From assembly GCF_000250985.1 (NCBI RefSeq), contig NW_013524653.1, positions 62,001 to 126,000 of the forward strand: DNA of 64,000 bases. The letters are read 5' to 3'. Below the pieces are notes generated by a model, which was not told where the DNA came from, did no database searches, and worked only from the letters and a program-made list of their open reading frames with translations. Of the stretch, positions 23,713-62,926 are shown in pieces. Numbering within the stretch: the first letter of the stretch is position 1; the number at the start of each line of letters is the position of its first letter. This DNA comes from Nematocida parisii ERTm1. Taxonomy: Eukaryota > Microsporidia. Position numbers and translations under genes: made by a program.

Positions 23713-26700
23713 TTAAATAAAATGAGACCTTCTAAACTCTTCGGCAAAGAAGGGGAGCGGTCTCTCTGGAATTAGTACAGGGTCTGCTGGGTGCTTAACT
23801 ATATTCTGATTCCACCCAACTGCAGTTAAAAACATGCTTTTCTCTTTTGTATAGCACACCGAAATATCTTTAACTGACTTAAAGGAATGCGTATCTCCAA
23901 TAGAGTCAACTTCACACAGATTTCCTGTGCACTTGTTATGAATAATATCAAGAGAAAGCATTAAAATATCAGATTGCATGGCAAAGGGAATTCCGGTATA
24001 AGTAAATGTAATACCATCTGAAAAAGGTGTTTTTGTTTGGATTATTGCACTTAAAACAAAAGGCTCGCTGCTAGAAAGAGAAATAAAGAAGTTTCTAGCG
24101 CTAAATAACTGCCGGGGCGTAATAAGGATAGATCGCATAGGATACGCTGAACTGTGGCATATAAACCCAACCATCGGAACTAACGGGTCTGAAATACGAA
24201 TTAGTGTAGAAAGTATGTCTTGGTTAATTGCAAAAGATGGAGTTTTATCTGCTTGATCTAACTGCTGTGTTTCTGTACCTTTCTGATTGTTTGCTGGGAT
24301 AAACAGGCCATCTAGGCCACTTGCATCCTGGCAGGAAAATTTATATCTATTTCTCCAGTCTGTCATATTTTTCCACTCTTCTATATCATGAGGCTTAACA
24401 AACAGTTCTTTTATATCTATTCCAAAGGCAATGCTATCAAGAAAATTGTTCATTTGGTTAGAATCTGCTACTATTTTGCCAGAGATATTACTCTCATTTT
24501 TTATGCGCTCGCAAACTTCCATAGCTAGCTTGCTTTCTATAGAAGCCCATTCTTCACTGGGCAGGGTTTTGTAGAATAAATCAAGTGCCTCCATGCCAAA
24601 AAAAGACACATGCCGCACTATAAGAAATAGCCGGCGCATAAGAGAGTATGCTGGTGCAGATTTCCCCCAGTGTTTATAAGGATTGCCTATTTCCCACGGA
24701 ATACTGGCTAACTCTATATTTATATTGCAGGGCATGCACATAGCATTTATATTAGACTTTGCTAGGAGTGTGCATGTTCTTGGTAGTGAGAATACATGGT
24801 GTATCTTATGTGCTGTGACTATTTGCCCAACCCACTGAGCAATAGTTGCAAATTTAGTATCTGCTGTGTATTTTCGCCTATATATCTCTCCTGTTAGTAT
24901 GTTTATTCCCACGGCAGACTCATTGCTTATTTCCAACAGAAGTGTGCCGCGCGAGTATTTGAACATGTCTAAAGGAGCAAACACCTTTTTTTCCTCCACA
25001 GAATATCCCACTAGTCGAGATATCCTGGACTTTAGCAGATTCAAGCTGGGAAGATCTGGCAGGTGATGCAATAAAGATTTGTTCAAAAGAGTATCTATAT
25101 GAGAAAGTGCCTTGTTTGTTATCCCAACTCGATATTCACATATTCTTAGATCAACCAAAACAACACACCCGTGTGCGCTGTGTGTGTACGAAGATGCAGA
25201 TTCTTTCATTTCTTCAAGATACCTTTCACATTCGTCTGAAATATTATCTGTGTCAATATCACTCCACCGGAGTTTAAGAGCAATCCACCCATTAAATAGA
25301 GACAGATCTGGAATGTCAAATAATATAGATGGAAGAAGAGTTTCTGTGAGAGATGAGTTCAGATTCACTAAGCTGATTGATTGAACTCCATGCGTAAGAG
25401 TGGTAGTTTCCAATAACTGGGCTAGTTTCTGTGCTATTTCTAGGTGGATATTCTCCCACAGCCCATTAGAAAAAAGCTTTTCGTAACTAAGCCTAAGTGA
25501 AGAAAGCTTTCCATAAAGATCTATTCGCGTGCCCGAAATGCGCATTGGATGGCCTACTTGTACTTTGCACCGGTTGATAGTAGGGCTCCACCAAAGCATA
25601 AACATCTTATTAGGTAGCCTGGAGGCTTCGCTTAATCGTGCCTTTATTACTGTTTTTGGGGTGTCTATATTACATATTATACTTTTTGAAATGCTTGGAT
25701 CTTTTGCAGTAGACTCGTACTGCTTTTGAGTGCCAGTCCACTTCTGTTCTACTAAAGGCAGAAGATTTCCTTGTGCTTTTGGATCTGTGCAGTCTGTATT
25801 TGTAAAGTGTATTGGAGAAGAGTCAATAGAGTATGCATTTGTGCGCAGAAGAAGGGAATTATATCTCTCCCACGGCACCCAATACCCATCGTGTATTTCA
25901 GTGGTCCATCTTTTGACTCCAGACAAATGATAGTTTCTAAGCCTCCACATAGCATCCGCTCTAAACCGGGCTGGCTTATGGAGAAATGTTGGCACCCTTG
26001 GTATTCCGCTTTGATTTATGTACACCCCCGCCTTCTCTAGTGAACTTATTACACAGCGCAAAGAGTCGGCTATCCTCTCAGAGGAGGCTTTACCCATCTC
26101 AGAAAGTATCTTGTTGTATACTGCGCTGGATAGAGCAATCTCATCTTTCCATGGAGCAGTTGCCTGCAATAAAACAAGAGAAGAAATCAGACTAAGCCCT
26201 CCAATTTCCTTTCCTGCATAGAACATAGTATTTGAAAATCTTTTTCTCATTCGGCTGTTCACCGTGGCCATAATTCTCTTCTTTATCTTTTCTTCATACC
26301 GCTGGATTATTCTCCAAAACTCCTTTGTAAGGGCTTCTCTAAAGAATAAAATGATCTGTACTATAAGGCGATTCCAGCGATCTGCTGCAATAGAAAAAGA
26401 GCTTCCTGTCATATCATAGTATATGTTTCGTGCTTTTAAATGAAAATGTTCCCGCAGTGCTTCTTTTGAGGATTGAAGATGTGCAGAGGTATGTGTTAGA
26501 TTAATATAAAACTCGCCCACATTTAGAGAAACTGGGAAAGAATCTATTTTAACACTGTTAGTGATTTCTGCCAGCTTTCCTTGCTTTATTTGATCCTGGT
26601 TTCGCTCTTTTTTACCTATATTAAATAAAAGAATTGGCAATCTCTCTAGTCTTCCCTCAAGAAGAGAAAGCTCTCTAAGAAATTCAGAATTTCTATAATA

Positions 26701-29217
26701 GGAAGCATTGTTTGCACAGGGAACCAGAAGATCTACTAGCAAAGATAGTTCTGGCGTACTAAAATCAAAGAGCCTTTTAGTATGAAGAATATATGTGATA
26801 TTTCCACATCTGAAATATTCCATAACAATATTGTTTTTAAGCTTACATAGAATTCTGTCAATTCTTTGCAGAATAAGCTCATTTACTGTGGAATAGAATT
26901 CTAGGCCACATGATATGCCAAGCCTTTGTGTTGCAGTAATATCCTTATAAGTAAGTGTAGAAGAGCACTTGGAAATAATATATTTGGTTAGAACACCATC
27001 GCATATATCACTAATACAGTTAGAAAGCGATATTCTGTCTATCTCTCTGGATGCATTTGTTAGATCAATAGATGAAAAATAGAGAGACTCTGCTCTTCCC
27101 AGTTTTTCCTCTAATTCGTGCTGCTTTTCTATTATTTCCCGCATACTCTCTGCGTATTTATACAAAGTAACAGGCAGCGGCTCAGTGTCTAAAGGAAGCG
27201 TTTTGTGCACCAGAAGATTGTTTTTGTGCAAGTGGTATGCCATAAGATGCTCTAAAAACGAGTCCGCCGTCTTTTCTTCAATTAAGTACATGTACGTAAG
27301 ATCGCTCGCTGTGTACTTTATAACTATTGGAGCACTTTCTTTATGCTTTGTTAGTCTTTTAATGATACGAGCGAGTGTTTCTGGAAGTGAGTTCATAGAT
27401 GTTTTGATGTACTCCATTTCTCTTTTTTCCTCCTGGCTTAAATGTCTTTTGTATGTGCTAAGAAGCCTGTTCAACGATAAAAACAGAATGTCCTGCATGA
27501 TATCTGCTGAATATAGGCCAAGTGAAAGAAGATTAACACGCCCTGCTTCCTCGTTAGGAAATAGACAGGGAACAGAACTGCATTCTCCAGAGAATTCCTT
27601 TTCTAGCGCAAATTTCTGTGCTCTCTTGTTTAACATCATTGACATGCGAAGAACCCGGGCCCTTATCTTTTTTATCTCTTTCTTGTTGGACATTCTGCAG
27701 TTAACATACTTGTTCCATTCCTGCACTGTTTCTTTATACCAAACAATCCCCAGGCTTTCTATCTGTTTTATTAAAAGGTCCTGTATTTTATATACATCTT
27801 CACTTTTCAGTGATGAAAGACTTTTGCTCGTAATCTGTTCTTTTATATATTCTTCATGGCTTTCTTCTTTTTTCCAGCACTTCCAGGCATTTTTTAACGT
27901 GTTTTTGATTATCTGTAAATTTATCTTTTGTGGCTCTATTATTTTTAAAATGCTTTCAAATATTCCTTTTTTAAAACATATGTCCCTCGCTGATTTAATT
28001 CTTTGTTTGGTTACACTTTTTTTTCTTCTCTGCCTTCCTTCTCTCCTTCGCTGCACATACTCTGCTAGGCGCTGAGAGAGCAAAGGAGTACATCCTAGAA
28101 GAAAAAGCGCCCAAACCCGCCATGGCTCACACCACATTAAGTTGTACGGAGCTTTTGTTTTTTCTGTGCAGACATTTAACAATTTTGCCATCTTTGATGT
28201 TTCTGATATCTGTCTAATTGTAGAATACTTATACCTGTATATGGCGGTTGTTGTTCCAACGTGTGTGAATTCTTTGAAAAGCATTTTCATTGACTCTTCT
28301 TGCGAAATCTCTCCTTTCTTCTTTTTCTCTACTATGGCTACTATTCTTGCTAAAAATTTAAAGAGCTCCTGTATAACATGAAATGACTGTCCCAAGCGGC
28401 TTTTCTTTTTGTCTTTTGTGCTGAGCGTCCTTGATGCATCTAGTGTATATGCATCTGATACTTGTAAGTGCTTTAGTTTTCTTTCCTCAATTACATAACT
28501 TAGCATTCTCCTGCCTTGAGACAAATATAGCCTGGCAAACTTGGTCCACTCCATTACGCTTTTAAACTCTTTCTTTGGCGGTATATACCTAGAGTCTTTT
28601 TTATTTTGGGATTTTACTTCTGATTTATCTTGTATCACTCTCTTTTCTTGTTTTTTTATTTCTTTTTGCGCTTTAACTAGTAGAACATTGATGCTTTCTC
28701 TGGACATAGGTCTTCTTTTTGTTTCAGTATCTTCTTTAAATAGGTTATCATTTGCACTTTTCCTGTCTTTAAGCACTTTTCTTGCACTGTTGTACAAAAT
28801 TGGGAACAAGCTTTCTTTGCTCCTCTTTTGTGATATTTTTATTATAGGATACTTCTTCCTTAGCTCTTTGTACTCTTTATTCGTATAATTTCTTGTTTTA
28901 ACTGGATATGTAATGCGAAATGCGCACCCATGCAGAGTGTAAAGCCATTTGCACTTATAATTTATACTGTCTTCTGACTTCTTCCAGCTACAGTCCAATA
29001 TTATTCCATCTGTTGTATATACACATGTAAGCGCTCTGTCACCCTCCCATGGCATGGGGATTGACTGGACCAAAGAAGAAATGATTTTAGAAGATGCAAC
29101 TAGCCCATCAAACAAAGCGTTCTTATTTCTTCTTGGTGGATCTGTAAGCATTTTTTCTAAATATACGCTAGGTAATGGAATTACTCCCTGAATTATATCT
29201 TCTGCAGTACTCTCCAT
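23713..29217 (-). CDS. PRP8: Pre-mRNA splicing factor Prp8 (reduced)
   Basis: Central scaffold of the spliceosome. Landmark Prp8 blocks occur in order: SIPMPWEGDRALTCVY near residue 54, PWRVWALFLLGCTPLLSQRL near 365 followed by EYVQRRREGRQ, the RT-like/thumb region with SRMRKRFSNTMFYAGKEIGG near 985, and MLWWSPTINRCKVQVG near 1208. The RNase H-like domain contains GWIALKLRWSDID and later IDLYGKL. The C-terminal Jab1/MPN-like domain (about 1630-1834) contains PLVPMVGFICHSS and the typical final EEFRRSHF. The frame is open for 5.5 kb without an intron. At 1834 aa it is about 500 aa shorter than human Prp8 (2335), the losses being mostly N-terminal. Its presence implies that this lineage still splices some introns. 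Confidence 0.95.
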   Translation of the reverse strand: MESTAEDIIQGVIPLPSVYLEKMLTDPPRRNKNALFDGLVASSKIISSLVQSIPMPWEGDRALTCVYTTDGIILDCSWKKSEDSINYKCKWLYTLHGCAFRITYPVKTRNYTNKEYKELRKKYPIIKISQKRSKESLFPILYNSARKVLKDRKSANDNLFKEDTETKRRPMSRESINVLLVKAQKEIKKQEKRVIQDKSEVKSQNKKDSRYIPPKKEFKSVMEWTKFARLYLSQGRRMLSYVIEERKLKHLQVSDAYTLDASRTLSTKDKKKSRLGQSFHVIQELFKFLARIVAIVEKKKKGEISQEESMKMLFKEFTHVGTTTAIYRYKYSTIRQISETSKMAKLLNVCTEKTKAPYNLMWCEPWRVWALFLLGCTPLLSQRLAEYVQRRREGRQRRKKSVTKQRIKSARDICFKKGIFESILKIIEPQKINLQIIKNTLKNAWKCWKKEESHEEYIKEQITSKSLSSLKSEDVYKIQDLLIKQIESLGIVWYKETVQEWNKYVNCRMSNKKEIKKIRARVLRMSMMLNKRAQKFALEKEFSGECSSVPCLFPNEEAGRVNLLSLGLYSADIMQDILFLSLNRLLSTYKRHLSQEEKREMEYIKTSMNSLPETLARIIKRLTKHKESAPIVIKYTASDLTYMYLIEEKTADSFLEHLMAYHLHKNNLLVHKTLPLDTEPLPVTLYKYAESMREIIEKQHELEEKLGRAESLYFSSIDLTNASREIDRISLSNCISDICDGVLTKYIISKCSSTLTYKDITATQRLGISCGLEFYSTVNELILQRIDRILCKLKNNIVMEYFRCGNITYILHTKRLFDFSTPELSLLVDLLVPCANNASYYRNSEFLRELSLLEGRLERLPILLFNIGKKERNQDQIKQGKLAEITNSVKIDSFPVSLNVGEFYINLTHTSAHLQSSKEALREHFHLKARNIYYDMTGSSFSIAADRWNRLIVQIILFFREALTKEFWRIIQRYEEKIKKRIMATVNSRMRKRFSNTMFYAGKEIGGLSLISSLVLLQATAPWKDEIALSSAVYNKILSEMGKASSERIADSLRCVISSLEKAGVYINQSGIPRVPTFLHKPARFRADAMWRLRNYHLSGVKRWTTEIHDGYWVPWERYNSLLLRTNAYSIDSSPIHFTNTDCTDPKAQGNLLPLVEQKWTGTQKQYESTAKDPSISKSIICNIDTPKTVIKARLSEASRLPNKMFMLWWSPTINRCKVQVGHPMRISGTRIDLYGKLSSLRLSYEKLFSNGLWENIHLEIAQKLAQLLETTTLTHGVQSISLVNLNSSLTETLLPSILFDIPDLSLFNGWIALKLRWSDIDTDNISDECERYLEEMKESASSYTHSAHGCVVLVDLRICEYRVGITNKALSHIDTLLNKSLLHHLPDLPSLNLLKSRISRLVGYSVEEKKVFAPLDMFKYSRGTLLLEISNESAVGINILTGEIYRRKYTADTKFATIAQWVGQIVTAHKIHHVFSLPRTCTLLAKSNINAMCMPCNINIELASIPWEIGNPYKHWGKSAPAYSLMRRLFLIVRHVSFFGMEALDLFYKTLPSEEWASIESKLAMEVCERIKNESNISGKIVADSNQMNNFLDSIAFGIDIKELFVKPHDIEEWKNMTDWRNRYKFSCQDASGLDGLFIPANNQKGTETQQLDQADKTPSFAINQDILSTLIRISDPLVPMVGFICHSSAYPMRSILITPRQLFSARNFFISLSSSEPFVLSAIIQTKTPFSDGITFTYTGIPFAMQSDILMLSLDIIHNKCTGNLCEVDSIGDTHSFKSVKDISVCYTKEKSMFLTAVGWNQNIVKHPADPVLIPERPLPFFAEEFRRSHFI

Positions 29218-33971: not shown

Positions 33972-34937
33972 ATGCAGCAAAGCGCAGCGTGCGAAGAGAC
34001 TTTCCCAAAATTAAAATTGGCAGCAGAACATTCTTACATTCACATAATAACGAAGTTCGTAAAAATTGATGTTGAAATAGTTCCTGAGCTAGATACAATT
34101 CTCACAGACACTGATGGAAAGAAAATAAAGGGCCCGGCCAGATGCATAGCGCATTTATTCCGAGAGAAAAATATTGATGAGGAAACAATTAGCAGCATAT
34201 CCAGTGTAATTGGGCTTAGACCGCAGCAGATGCTAGCATATGTGGCAAGCGGCCCAGAAGAAAGAATAGACAACATCCTTGCCATATCAAAAATAAGAAA
34301 GTGGCTTTTTGAGGGACAAATTCTAAACAAAGTTGGAGACCACCTAGTAGACAAGCTAGCAGATATACATGAAAGATACCAGAAAGTGTACTGCAGAGAG
34401 ACTGGAGAAATATTTGTAGAAAGAAATATGGTCAGAGTAATTGCCGATTTCTACAAGCTGGTGATCCTTTCTGGAAAGATTGAGTCAATTATGGACCATC
34501 CAGAGGCAGATACTCTTTTCATAGAGAATGTTGATTTTAAGACAGAGAAAAGGACAATAGTAAGTGGTTTAAAGGGAAAGTTTGAAAAAAGCCGACTTCT
34601 TGATGCGTGCTGTTTGTTTACTGTAAACCTAAAATCAGTTTCCTTTAAAGGAACCAAATCATTTGGAATGATTTTATTTGGAAAGAGCCAAGAAGAAAAC
34701 AATGGATCTGTGATATTTACCGAGAGTAATGGAGATAGACTGGGTCTGCTGAACTATCCACTTAACAAACTAGTTCCCTTCTCTATTAAAACAGGCGATG
34801 CGTCTAGAAGAACTCTTGAGGTCTTTTTTGAGCGGGTTTCTATAAAAGGAGGGAAATTGGTTTACAATGGCCTAGAAACAGAAATACAAGGAAAGCCAGT
34901 TTTGGTGGAAGGGATAGACAATGGAACAGTATCATAA
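33972..34937 (+). CDS. ARC1: Arc1/EMAPII-like tRNA-binding protein
   Basis: A cofactor of aminoacyl-tRNA synthetases. The C-terminal half (about residue 155 on) is the EMAPII/Trbp111 OB-fold tRNA-binding domain. It has LVILSGKIESIMDHPEADTL with the conserved 'HP-x-A-D' turn, FIENVDFKTEKRTIVSGLKG, VNLKSVSFKGTKSFGMILFG and a C-terminal EMAPII-like extension (FFERVSIKGGKLVYNGLETE ... KGKPV-like end). The N-terminal half (about 1-145) is helical and could be the GST-like domain that binds MetRS or GluRS in yeast Arc1. The product is 321 aa; yeast Arc1 is 376. The longest frame begins at TTG (33963); ATG 33972 is used. A fusion such as the C-terminal part of a synthetase is excluded because no catalytic domain is present. 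Confidence 0.87.
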   Translation: MQQSAACEETFPKLKLAAEHSYIHIITKFVKIDVEIVPELDTILTDTDGKKIKGPARCIAHLFREKNIDEETISSISSVIGLRPQQMLAYVASGPEERIDNILAISKIRKWLFEGQILNKVGDHLVDKLADIHERYQKVYCRETGEIFVERNMVRVIADFYKLVILSGKIESIMDHPEADTLFIENVDFKTEKRTIVSGLKGKFEKSRLLDACCLFTVNLKSVSFKGTKSFGMILFGKSQEENNGSVIFTESNGDRLGLLNYPLNKLVPFSIKTGDASRRTLEVFFERVSIKGGKLVYNGLETEIQGKPVLVEGIDNGTVS

Positions 34938-34988
34938 GATATGTAATAAATAAATCATTTAGTTTATACCAAATATTTCAATAATACT

Positions 34989-35191
34989 TTTTGTATACTA
35001 AGACTAATATTAGTATCGTAATACATGAGTTATCTAAATGTTTACATGAACATGGAAGTGTCAATTAAATCATAAATATTTGTTGACATATTGTGTCAAT
35101 ATAAATTAAATTGATCATACGGTCTATAAATACGTATACAAAATTTAATAAACATTAAAGTATCTTAATGACTTTTTCTAAGAAATCAACT
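34989..35191 (+). repeat. 203-bp inverted repeat, left arm (copy A)
   Basis: This segment is the near-perfect reverse complement of 36906-37108. By eye it differs at about five positions, three of which fall in the loop of a central palindrome (TGACA-TATTG-TGTCA at 35084-35098). It begins 52 bases after the Arc1-like stop codon. It contains the dyads ACTAATATTAGT and ATGTTTACATGAACAT. Confidence 0.9.
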
Positions 35192-36905
35192 ATACTTCTA
35201 GTGCTTCTAGATGTTTCGCCCTTCAATTTGCTTTGGGCCCAGTCCTTCTGTTTTTTTGGCATGTTCTTATGTTTTTTGCTGTGCATATAATAACTGAGTT
35301 GTTTTATTTAATGTTTTAATATTTAATATCGTAAAATATAAAAGATGTCTATTCATTCTGTGGAATAATTCCTTATATACCAATTTAATTCTAAAAATAG
35401 AAAAAACACAAAATAATAATATGAATGTCATAGTAAGAGGACAGACTCCATTATACACATAAAACAGCACATACGTATATCTATTTACATAGAAGCAAAA
35501 ATAGACCTAAAGGGCAAATTTTACAAAACCACCTATAAACAGATAGATCGCCATAAACAGTACATAATATGCTAATATATTATATTAATTATTATATCTA
35601 TATTAATGTTAAATTGCATATTCTTTTTATTTTTCTATTATTTGACTATTAAAATGAGAATCTTCTTCCTTTTCTCACTATTTTAACTCTTTCTTTCTTT
35701 CTTATTTCTCTTCTTCCTTTATACTTTTATTTCTATTACTACTATATTTAATACAATAATCCTATAATCCTATAACAATTGTATACCTAGTCAATTCACA
35801 CTAATATAACACGCCTGCCACTCTCTTCCATCCCATACTAGAATTATAGATACCCACACCACCCGAACTCATAGTTAATAATGACATATTTGCACCCACC
35901 CACACAAGTTTGTATATTATACGCACACGTCCTCACCAACCACCTCCTCCATTTATTCCTGCCCACCTCGCATACTATATATTCTTGGCCTTCTTTGAAG
36001 AGCCCCTTTGCAGAAATAACCTGACAAAAAACTCTGCTGCAGGGGTATGAAAAGTGAGGAAAATGCCCAGAAATTGGCCCAAATATTCGGGTTATGTCGG
36101 GTTGCAGGGGTATACTTACCTTAAAGGGAAAAATTGCGTCCCAAAGAGGAAGTGGGAAATATGTGGGGTATAAATAGAGAAGGAATTTTAAATTTTATCC
36201 ACAGGGCGAGAGACTTCTCAGCCACAGACAAATACATTGTTTGGCCTGGAAACACTCAGCCCTGTGGGTCAGTCCGAAACAAAATCACCTGTGGCCAGAT
36301 TGGTTGGCTACGTGTTCGGTGTGGGGGCCAGCCGGCTTGTGGCCCCCTTGTTCCTTAAGTTCTTCCTTCATCCATCACTTCGTCAATCCTATATTTCAGG
36401 AATAAAATTTAAAAAATATCCCGTCAGAAAAAAATGAGAAAAGTATAATTATAGTATAATTAGTCAGTGTATAGCTGTGCATAGTAGTAATAGAACAAAA
36501 AGAGAATAAAGTGCAGTGGGCTAGGTATGCACATGCAATATAAGCACAGTTTATTATATTATATGCTAGTTTATAATTTAACTTTGCTAAATTATTTAAC
36601 TATTTATTACTTACATAGAAACAAGACATTAAAAATAATTTGTAAAAACTCTTAAAGCAATACATCCACACACTAGAAAGCTATACCAATTAATAACCAC
36701 TTAACAAACAATTATATTTTAAACATCAAATAAAGCACTTTTATTGAATTAGTTATTGCAGTGTGGTGTGTTTGGTTTAAATTCAAAATAGAAGGAGTAT
36801 CTGTAATATAGTTGTATAAATGTATTAAAATAGCACTCTATTTATAAAATAGAAGAATTGTAGAAAACTAACCATAAACTGTATAGTTTAACTATTAATG
36901 TAGAA
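35192..36905. other. Core between the inverted-repeat arms
   Basis: This 1.7-kb stretch has no long ORF. Its composition changes along its length. The first part is AT-rich. From about 35640 to 36000 the plus strand is pyrimidine-rich and almost free of G (runs such as CTCTTTCTTTCTTTCTTATT and CACCCACCCACAC). From 36010 to 36440 comes a GC-richer, purine-rich and hairpin-forming island. The rest is AT-rich again. The whole 34989-37108 unit could be a non-autonomous TIR element, or a structural chromosomal feature. Confidence 0.6.
36040..36440 (+). ncRNA. Candidate structured RNA or GC-rich island
   Basis: A GC-rich island stands out from AT-rich flanks. It includes a TATA-like box (GGGGTATAAATAG at 36163-36175), two copies of GCAGGGGTAT (near 36041 and 36102), and a perfect 8-bp hairpin (GGGGGCCA at 36323-36330 with TGGCCCCC at 36340-36347). 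Two short overlapping frames (36134-36358 and 36237-36437) show no protein-like features. I could not match it to U1-U6, SRP, RNase P or MRP RNA core motifs. The strand is a guess based on the TATA box. Confidence 0.3.
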
Positions 36906-37108
36906 AGTTGATTTCTTAGAAAAAGTCATTAAGATACTTTAATGTTTATTAAATTTTGCATACGTATTTATAGACCGTATGATCAATTTAATTTATATTG
37001 ACATATTGTGTCAACAAATATTTATGATTTAATTGACACTGCCATGTTCATGTAAACATTTAGATAACTCATGTATTACGATACTAATATTAGTCTTAGT
37101 ATACAAAA
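36906..37108 (-). repeat. 203-bp inverted repeat, right arm (copy B)
   Basis: This is the reverse complement of 34989-35191 at about 97% identity. Its right end is 71 bases before the ATG of the 37179 gene. The palindrome loop reads TATTG on the plus strand, as in copy A, although the arms are inverted; the loop is therefore flipped relative to its arm. It contains the hairpin ATATTA-GTCT-TAGTAT near 37088-37103. Confidence 0.9.
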
Positions 37109-37178
37109 TTAATATCAGTTTTATCATATAACAAATATAATTATTTATTTTTTTACATATAAACAACATTTAACCACA

Positions 37179-38051
37179 ATGAAAAAAAAACATATAACTA
37201 ATAAAATATGTAAACAAAACAAACATATAAAAATTCTACCATATGAAAAGCCAGATGGTTCAACAACAGGAATAGGCCGCCCATGGTATTCTAATATCCC
37301 ATTCAAAAAATGCTGTAGTGATATGCCTTCATATTCTAATACTCCATCTCTAAGCAATTCGTACATGCAGATTTATCCTTTTTCTCAGCATAAAATACTA
37401 TCTGCCGAAGATAAAGATAAAGATACGACCTCAAAGGATATTACTATTGATTATATAGACCAAGAAAAAACAGCAGATTTTTTTACCCAATATTTCACCT
37501 CCAGTGTTGAGGATTCTGCATATTTTGAAGATACTTCCAATTCCAATCCCGAAAACCAATGGTTAACTATCTCAATAAATACCAATACCTCCGCATACTC
37601 GCATATATACAACAACTATACATCTAAAAATTGTAGTAATTCTCCGAATGCAAAGGTGCCCTGTATAGATAATTCTGCTATTATTGAATCTACACTTGAC
37701 AACAGCCCAAATGGATATGCTACTATGAATCATGATAATTTTGACATATCCAAAACTTTAAGCAGCTGGCATACAACAATAGACTCAAATAATTTAAAAA
37801 CCACCCAAGTGAATTCTACAGCGAATGATAATTATGCACCATGCACAGATATATTGTGTATAGAGCATACTAAAGAAGATACTCGAGAGAACTTTTCTAA
37901 TATTAAAAAGTTAGTTAAAAATACAGTGCTTCCATGTGGGGCTATTCTATTTTTAGGAATGCTTTTTCATGAGATATATTATAAAAATATAGTAGGTATA
38001 GTTTTATTATATCTCGAAATATTCTTAAGAATGATAGTATCATACAATTAG
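37179..38051 (+). CDS. Hypothetical Asn/Ser/Thr-rich membrane protein (290 aa)
   Basis: Not recognised. The first 20 residues are strongly basic (MKKKHITNKICKQNKH). Residues about 35-240 are polar and rich in Asn, Ser, Thr and Tyr, with many potential N-glycosylation sequons such as NNYT, NSTA and NFSN. Two hydrophobic segments lie at the C-terminus (near 249-267 and 271-288: AILFLGMLFHEIYY, then IVGIVLLYLEIFLRMIV). This is a tail-anchored or C-terminally double-spanning architecture. The gene starts 71 bases after copy B of the 203-bp repeat, so that repeat may carry its promoter. Composition and position in an accessory region suggest a lineage-specific host-interaction candidate; this is inference only. 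Confidence 0.6.
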   Translation: MKKKHITNKICKQNKHIKILPYEKPDGSTTGIGRPWYSNIPFKKCCSDMPSYSNTPSLSNSYMQIYPFSQHKILSAEDKDKDTTSKDITIDYIDQEKTADFFTQYFTSSVEDSAYFEDTSNSNPENQWLTISINTNTSAYSHIYNNYTSKNCSNSPNAKVPCIDNSAIIESTLDNSPNGYATMNHDNFDISKTLSSWHTTIDSNNLKTTQVNSTANDNYAPCTDILCIEHTKEDTRENFSNIKKLVKNTVLPCGAILFLGMLFHEIYYKNIVGIVLLYLEIFLRMIVSYN

Positions 38052-38550
38052 ACTTAAATCACTGATTTTTTAAAATTAATAATCACTTGTTACATAATGT
38101 CTACCATTGTTTGTATAACATTAAATGCAGATTTATTTATAACCGGCCTAATTATAGATGTAGTTCTAAATAATTTTTTAAGTATTTTTATTCTAATAGT
38201 AAATATATATATTCTTTAATTGGTAGCGTGAAGAGTTTATATTTTAAAGTATACCAAGTTTAGGGGTTTAAATGAACATTTATAAGATTAATAACCATAA
38301 ATACTAATTTTATATCAATACACATGTAATTCTTAGAAGGCCGCTAGAATAGCCATAAACATTCGTTAACTTAATTACATAACAAATATTCACTGTATAA
38401 TACTATTTTTATTAAATTTGTTACTTGATTCTTAGATAAATATTATGTATATCTTCATGCAGTTTCTCGCTGTTTAAAGATGATTTTAAGTAGATTATGA
38501 TGTTGTGTATGATTTATTTATACCTAGGCATGTTTTATAGCACTTTTTTC
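38052..38550. other. Convergent intergenic region
   Basis: AT-rich. A 40-codon hydrophobic frame starting with ATG at 38097 is within chance expectation for this composition. No other feature is seen. Confidence 0.4.
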
Positions 38551-62721: not shown

Positions 62722-62926
62722 AGTTGTTTTCCTAAGAAAAAGCATTCTTAAACTTTGACCTTTATTGAATTTGTATACGTATTTACAGTCCGTATAAGCA
62801 ATTTAATTTATGTTGACATATTGCGCCAACAACAATTTCTGATTTAATTTGTGCTGCCATGTTTATGTAAACATTCCGATAACTCATGTCGTGCTACACA
62901 AATGCTAGTCTTAGCATACAACAATT
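62722..62926 (-). repeat. Diverged third copy (C) of the 203-bp repeat
   Basis: This copy has the same orientation as copy B (36906-37108) and roughly 75% identity by eye. Conserved blocks include TACGTATTTA, TTTAATTTAT-TTGACATATTG, GCTGCCATGTTTATGTAAAC and GATAACTCATGT. Its hairpin ATGCTA-GTCT-TAGCAT near 62902-62917 differs from copy B at two stem positions in a pairing-preserving way. It lies upstream of the secreted coiled-coil gene. Confidence 0.8.

Follow-up and report, generated by a model that had tools for sequence, protein, structure and literature searches.

The DNA analysed here, called the window throughout, is a stretch of 64,000 nucleotides (C8:62001-126000) from the assembly of Nematocida parisii (3.98 Mb, 11 contigs), a microsporidian that infects worms. 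Two repeat arms are placed there in inverted orientation around a spacer that carries a GC-rich core. The features of the locus are listed below in window positions, the arms being named according to the preferred reading as solo long terminal repeats (LTRs).

34984-34988, no strand: target-site duplication ATACT on the outer side of the left LTR, exact match to 35192-35196
34989-35191, plus strand: left solo LTR, 203 bp, from family search and alignment; L053, a full element, has LTRs of this family
35083-35099, plus strand: 17-bp hairpin, inverted relative to the right arm, from the arm comparison
35168-35191, plus strand: gag-type start codon and seven codons (MTFSKKST) at the 3' end of the LTR; the L053 gag ORF starts likewise inside its LTR
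35192-35196, no strand: target-site duplication ATACT on the inner side of the left LTR, exact match to 34984-34988
35691-36585, plus strand: core, a GC-rich non-coding dispersed repeat present at nine places including the window, 90-94% alike
36169-36178, plus strand: TATA-like motif TATAAATAGA (motif only), invariant in six core copies
36621-36903, plus strand: remnant of sequence lying 3' of a gene-family locus, with 69-75% similarity to stretches of L026, L031, L033 and L025
36906-37108, minus strand: right solo LTR, 203 bp, lacking a target-site duplication, from sequence and copy alignment
37179-38051, plus strand: ORF of 290 aa, 70 bp past the right LTR; its identity is 99% to an N. parisii protein and 63% in Nematocida sp. 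ERTm5
62722-62921, minus strand: third LTR copy of the family in the window, 79% identical to the left arm (BLAST)

The initial annotation had described near-identical inverted arms of 203 bp, and this was confirmed. The arms at 34989-35191 and 36906-37108 are 203 nt each, inverted, 98% complementary and separated by a spacer of 1714 nt. They differ at five positions. Three of these are due to one flipped hairpin, the perfect 17-bp TTGACA(TATTG)TGTCAA at 35083-35099 in the left arm and 36998-37014 in the right arm, which is micro-inverted between the two; the remaining two are substitutions. A weak direct repeat of 33 nt between the arms was traced to the same flip. Among 19 full copies of the family, the nearest relative of each window arm is the other arm (97.5%, the next being 94.4%), and two positions carry states private to the window arms, absent from the 17 other full copies, three of which are gapped at the first position. 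The fork joining the two arms was unresolved in a tree of the 19 copies. If 53 copies are placed at random, a mean of 0.76 inverted pairs no more than 2.2 kb apart is expected, against two observed (P 0.17); for neighbours in any orientation the values were 1.5 and four (P 0.06), one of the four being the LTR pair of L053 itself. The inverted pairing is therefore near random expectation and needs no special cause.

A BLAST search of the arm against the full genome had been proposed as a check in the initial annotation. It scored 40 places including both arms, at 71 to 100% identity, and these amount to a lower bound since 40 of 58 BLAST candidates were scored. Other genome copies thus exist at no fewer than 38 further places, which excludes chance as the origin of the arm repeat. 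The ends are fixed, 37 of the 40 scored places spanning positions 1-4 to 201-203. A 22-nt pattern taken from the 5' end, allowing at most two mismatches, occurs at 53 places in the genome and its reverse at none; the related element L052 contributes two of the 53 with its LTRs, so that more than one family is counted. Analyses of individual copies were carried out on 27 BLAST rows in fetched stretches, of which 19 of full length were used and eight partial ones dropped. The 19 aligned copies end sharply on both sides, and in all of them an ATG followed by seven open codons closes the 3' end of the repeat. Set against the TG...CA ends of LTRs, most copies begin as expected, with TGTT, and the window arms with TTTT; all 19 finish with CT, not CA. 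These departures count against the solo-LTR reading.

Copies of the arm are flanked by short duplications. With the copy ends set by fixed motifs, an exact 5-bp target-site duplication was found in seven of the 19 full copies, and 13 of 19 (these seven included) have at most one mismatch. In 10,000 re-pairings of the flanks, the means were 0.36 exact and 0.88 with at most one mismatch, and the observed values were never reached. No exact duplication of length 3, 4, 6, 7 or 8 was seen among the 19 copies. In the remaining six copies, the flanks expected to be duplicated disagree at three or more positions, which speaks against the solo-LTR reading. As the length of 5 bp was first spotted by eye in these same 19 copies, the independent test is provided by the full element L053.

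L053 was reached through the Gag-like ORF of L052. With this ORF as query, a match was obtained at C5:100800-101669, which starts inside one of two direct repeat copies and continues between them. The element defined in this way (C5:99881-101845, 1965 bp) has two identical 203-bp LTRs in direct orientation and GTTAT, a 5-bp duplication, on both outer sides. Its Gag ORF of 302 aa begins with MPFPKKTT within the first LTR, and the frame is continuous from the LTR onward. The protein contains CYHCSKPGHIEAEC, with the spacing CX2CX4HX4C, which is that of a Gag zinc knuckle; the Pfam zf-CCHC model gave an E value of 0.003 on the ORF, below the curated cut-off. A second ORF above 60 aa was not detected on the gag strand of L053, and the reverse transcriptase (RT) search of the genome gave no match there. 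As its LTRs are identical, L053 is apparently a very recent insertion. It is the single full gag copy of the arm family seen, and the arm retrotransposon is probably non-autonomous.

Between the L053 LTR and the 19 full copies, identity ranges from 76 to 97%. This LTR is closest, at 97%, to a solo copy in L033 that carries an exact duplication of its own. Identity to the window arms is 76.5 and 77.5%, and no full copy of the arms' own subfamily was seen in the genome; the distance to the arms counts against the solo-LTR reading. A reading of the arm as a promoter block of a gene family was dropped in view of L053; the ORF starts look mostly unrelated by eye. In an uncontrolled count, an ORF of at least 100 aa starts within 700 bp, on one side and in one orientation, at 11 of the 19 full copies, and the other eight have none.

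L052 (C1:937350-941300) has LTRs of 216 bp, 97.7% alike, which enclose RT (1.4e-38) and RNase H (1.6e-32) sequences. The first 22 nt of its LTR are identical to the arm copy L042; over the full length, none of the 19 full copies is more than 62% alike to the L052 LTRs, and the L053 LTR is 56% alike. No integrase-domain match falls within L052, the three in the genome all lying elsewhere, and this is a further point against the solo-LTR reading. So is the primer binding site, none having been recognised in a non-systematic reading. Directly before the 3' LTR, both elements have AAAAGGTTTGCCC[A/C]GGGA, which is not a pure purine run; this common motif suggests that one enzyme set could serve both. 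Further Gag-like matches are present at C1:407291-408118 (with five stops), C1:85791-86321 and C3:469654-470682.

The direct LTRs of L053, its Gag ORF starting in the LTR and the GTTAT on both sides lead us to read the window arms as solo LTRs (probability about 0.94). Their family would be one of short LTR retrotransposons, in which the single full copy seen carries gag alone. The left arm, with ATACT on each side, is a simple insertion. At the right arm no duplication was found (ATTAA and TTCTA). Since ATTAA recurs 6 bp further in, it is possible that the duplication of the right arm was lost through a 6-bp insertion or small changes.

The sequence between the core and the right arm resembles the 3' flank of gene-family loci. 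The similarity at 36621-36903 reaches the right arm in L026, and only parts are covered in L031, L033 and L025. Beyond the right arm it is not regained, except for one match of 36 nt to L032 on the opposite strand (E 0.005). Because the flank similarity stops at the right arm, where the duplication is also missing, we give about even odds that the right LTR marks a junction at which ectopic LTR recombination removed a gene of the large family.

The core itself was found on seven contigs, with two copies each on C1 and C2, and not on C7, C9, C10 or C11 (C10 is 27 kb; C9 and C11 together 71 kb). The 15 matches to the core query are the query, eight copies at 90-94%, two diverged ones (84% and 73%) and four to the downstream stretch. 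Five of the eight other core places extend over about 720-900 bp and three are interrupted by N runs. The runs L030:1-4331, L031:5681-6275 and L032:4172-4862 directly abut three cores, as if the assembly broke there. In the fetched stretches, none of the eight other cores lies within a pair of full arms. One full LTR is present 0.4 kb downstream of the L024 core and another 1.9 kb downstream of the L029 core, both oriented as the right arm, so that core and LTR may not be wholly independent. These two LTRs share 78-79% and 88% identity with the arms, whereas the cores are 92-94% alike, which speaks against a joint duplication of core and LTR.

That the 1.7 kb between the arms hold no credible protein gene, as stated in the initial annotation, was borne out. 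There is no ATG-started ORF of 80 aa or more, and the longest ORF, of 65 aa at 36161-36358, has a frame open in six of six core copies but shows no bias by codon position. The variable sites number 7, 5 and 7 at the three codon positions, and of 100 pairwise codon changes 69 are non-synonymous; the core was accordingly rejected as a protein gene. A structured RNA was not supported either, compensating double-sided changes being seen at 0 of 77 predicted pairs in copies that vary little. A 451-nt stretch of the core folds with z scores of -2.60 on the plus and -1.61 on the minus strand. In an Rfam search of 34000-38200 with E up to 10, only two matches were returned (E 4.8 and 6); over the whole window at gathering scores, Rfam gave two tRNAs.

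The sequence ATACTTACCTTAA at 36112-36124 resembles the 5' end of U1 snRNA. A U1 gene in the core found no support, the U1 model having no match genome-wide at E up to 10 (39 candidates scored; in microsporidia the model may lack sensitivity). Despite this null result, the genome has a core protein of the spliceosome, as a PRP8-like ORF of 1834 aa lies at 23713-29217 of the window on the minus strand. The SSU rRNA model also gave no match against the assembly (63 candidates, five scored). In six core copies, the four-gamete test fails in 69 of 190 pairs of informative sites, and over a wider stretch in five copies it fails in 237 of 406. The core copies have thus exchanged sequence, or sites have changed repeatedly.

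At six of the nine core places, an ORF of one gene family is among the two nearest ORFs (at least 150 aa) pointing away from the core. The longest members of this family have about 1000 aa. In L029 the family ORF is the second of the two, and the match in L030 is just 27% identical (1e-18). No ORF of the family was found at the cores of C1:806k, C2:690k and the window. A protein search with one member returned 26 proteins including its own record, all from Nematocida and none with a Pfam domain listed. The gene-family loci are 63-92% alike in BLAST pieces, and the core copies more so. Large gene families of Nematocida are described in PMC10393165. A separate repeat of about 340 bp also lies beside this gene family (L031:5078-5411, L032:8029-8367, L032:9465-9803 and L033:4863-5200), its copies being 87-99.7% alike and GC-rich in L033. 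The sole Rfam match in six loci scanned is a 5S rRNA gene at L033:1529-1647, near a gene-family locus.

It is conceivable, if doubtful, that the core has a function, as a non-coding module linked to the loci of this fast-evolving large gene family. It might act as a GC-rich anchor of ectopic recombination or as the promoter of an untranslated RNA, and would be kept at 90-94% by interchromosomal exchange while the neighbouring genes diverge; LTR recombination would then give such loci a further way of being reshuffled or lost, as it would have done at this site.

Other readings of the arms were weighed against this evidence. Nearly identical, inverted arms that share two private states against 17 other full copies would suit a single non-autonomous transposon of 2.1 kb, with the arms as terminal inverted repeats (TIRs) and the core as its inside. 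The outer ends, however, have no common duplication (ATACT on the left and TTAAT on the right), which agrees with what the initial annotation had seen, and the left arm alone has one. Most arm copies are without a core, and the eight other cores are without a full arm pair. The window arms and the core do not form a single element, so that the 2.1-kb unit proposed initially was given up and a transposon of this kind is extremely improbable. Mobile DNA of recent origin had rightly been suspected there, and the Nematocida host rightly guessed; the TIR type did not hold, the arms being LTRs by comparison with L053. The same degree of improbability applies to a 200-bp MITE of a DNA transposon. It would fit a discrete element of some 203 bp that has 5-bp duplications and whose inverted ends are short and imperfect (judged by eye), but in L053 gag lies between two direct copies, the repeat closes with an ATG and seven open codons in 19 of 19 copies, and a related LTR flanks the reverse transcriptase of L052.

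The arms could also be a recombination or inversion switch, or be kept alike mutually by gene conversion. They are each other's nearest relatives, and the flip of the left-arm hairpin makes both arms read alike on the plus strand. Against this, the duplication of the left arm is intact, and there has therefore been no net inversion, as an odd number of inversions would split the ATACT pair. Two insertions from one source explain the arm identity, and inverted LTR pairs within 2.2 kb are not unusual, so that the inversion site of the initial annotation found no support and this reading is unlikely. A centromere or replication origin, also raised there, would draw on the GC-rich core between AT-rich inverted arms and on core copies on seven contigs. 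The uneven count, with two cores each on C1 and C2 and none found on four contigs, is ill suited to one centromere per chromosome, provided that contigs follow chromosomes (three of these four contigs are small), and the other cores are without a pair of full arms; we regard it as very improbable and the proposal as unsupported. In the part of PMC12449221 consulted, a 2025 survey of other microsporidia that does not include Nematocida, no centromeric regions were found by GC or repeats.

The solo-LTR reading suggests the following course of events, which builds on the observed LTR identity, the 5-bp duplications, the gag start in the LTR and the one full copy with identical LTRs. The full gag copy would be transcribed from its LTR and translated from the start codon within it. 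For reverse transcription and for integration, which gives the 5-bp duplication, the copy would presumably depend on the enzymes of another, related element of Ty3/gypsy-like type. Once inserted, it would lose its inside when its two LTRs recombine, and one LTR would remain. Two such solo LTRs in opposite orientation would now surround an older, unrelated core repeat. Transcription, the supply of enzymes by another element and LTR-LTR recombination are the proposed steps of this scheme.

With the solo-LTR reading, a striking inverted repeat is in all likelihood settled, and a gag-only LTR retrotransposon is added to a small microsporidian genome. The dispersed non-coding core beside a large gene family, with copies more alike than the genes, bears on the reshuffling of that family.

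Solo LTRs of yeast Ty elements have 5-bp duplications, are more numerous than full copies and act as sites of recombination. Single LTRs of the arm family likewise have 5-bp duplications and outnumber full copies. Unlike in yeast Ty, recombination at the arms is proposed from sequence, and divergence from the left arm reaches 29% among the copies.

Among the papers listed for solo or non-autonomous LTRs in microsporidia and for LTR retrotransposons of Nematocida, none describes the arm family in its title or opening abstract. The table in PMC4202319 gives four LTR families and no LINE for N. parisii, and the arm family may or may not be among the four. As in the Ty3/gypsy-like LTR retrotransposons of microsporidia, there are LTRs and a CCHC knuckle in Gag, and the related L052 has RT and RNase H. 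For three microsporidian subgroups of such elements, the consulted portion of PMC4202319 describes single polyproteins, whereas the full copy of the arm family holds a gag ORF only. Terminal-repeat retrotransposons with a GAG domain (TR-GAG) are described from plants in the section of PMC8704663 consulted. Like these, L053, as one copy, has a single gag ORF without pol between two LTRs; unlike the plant elements as described in that section, it is microsporidian, is the one full copy seen, and has the gag start codon inside the LTR.
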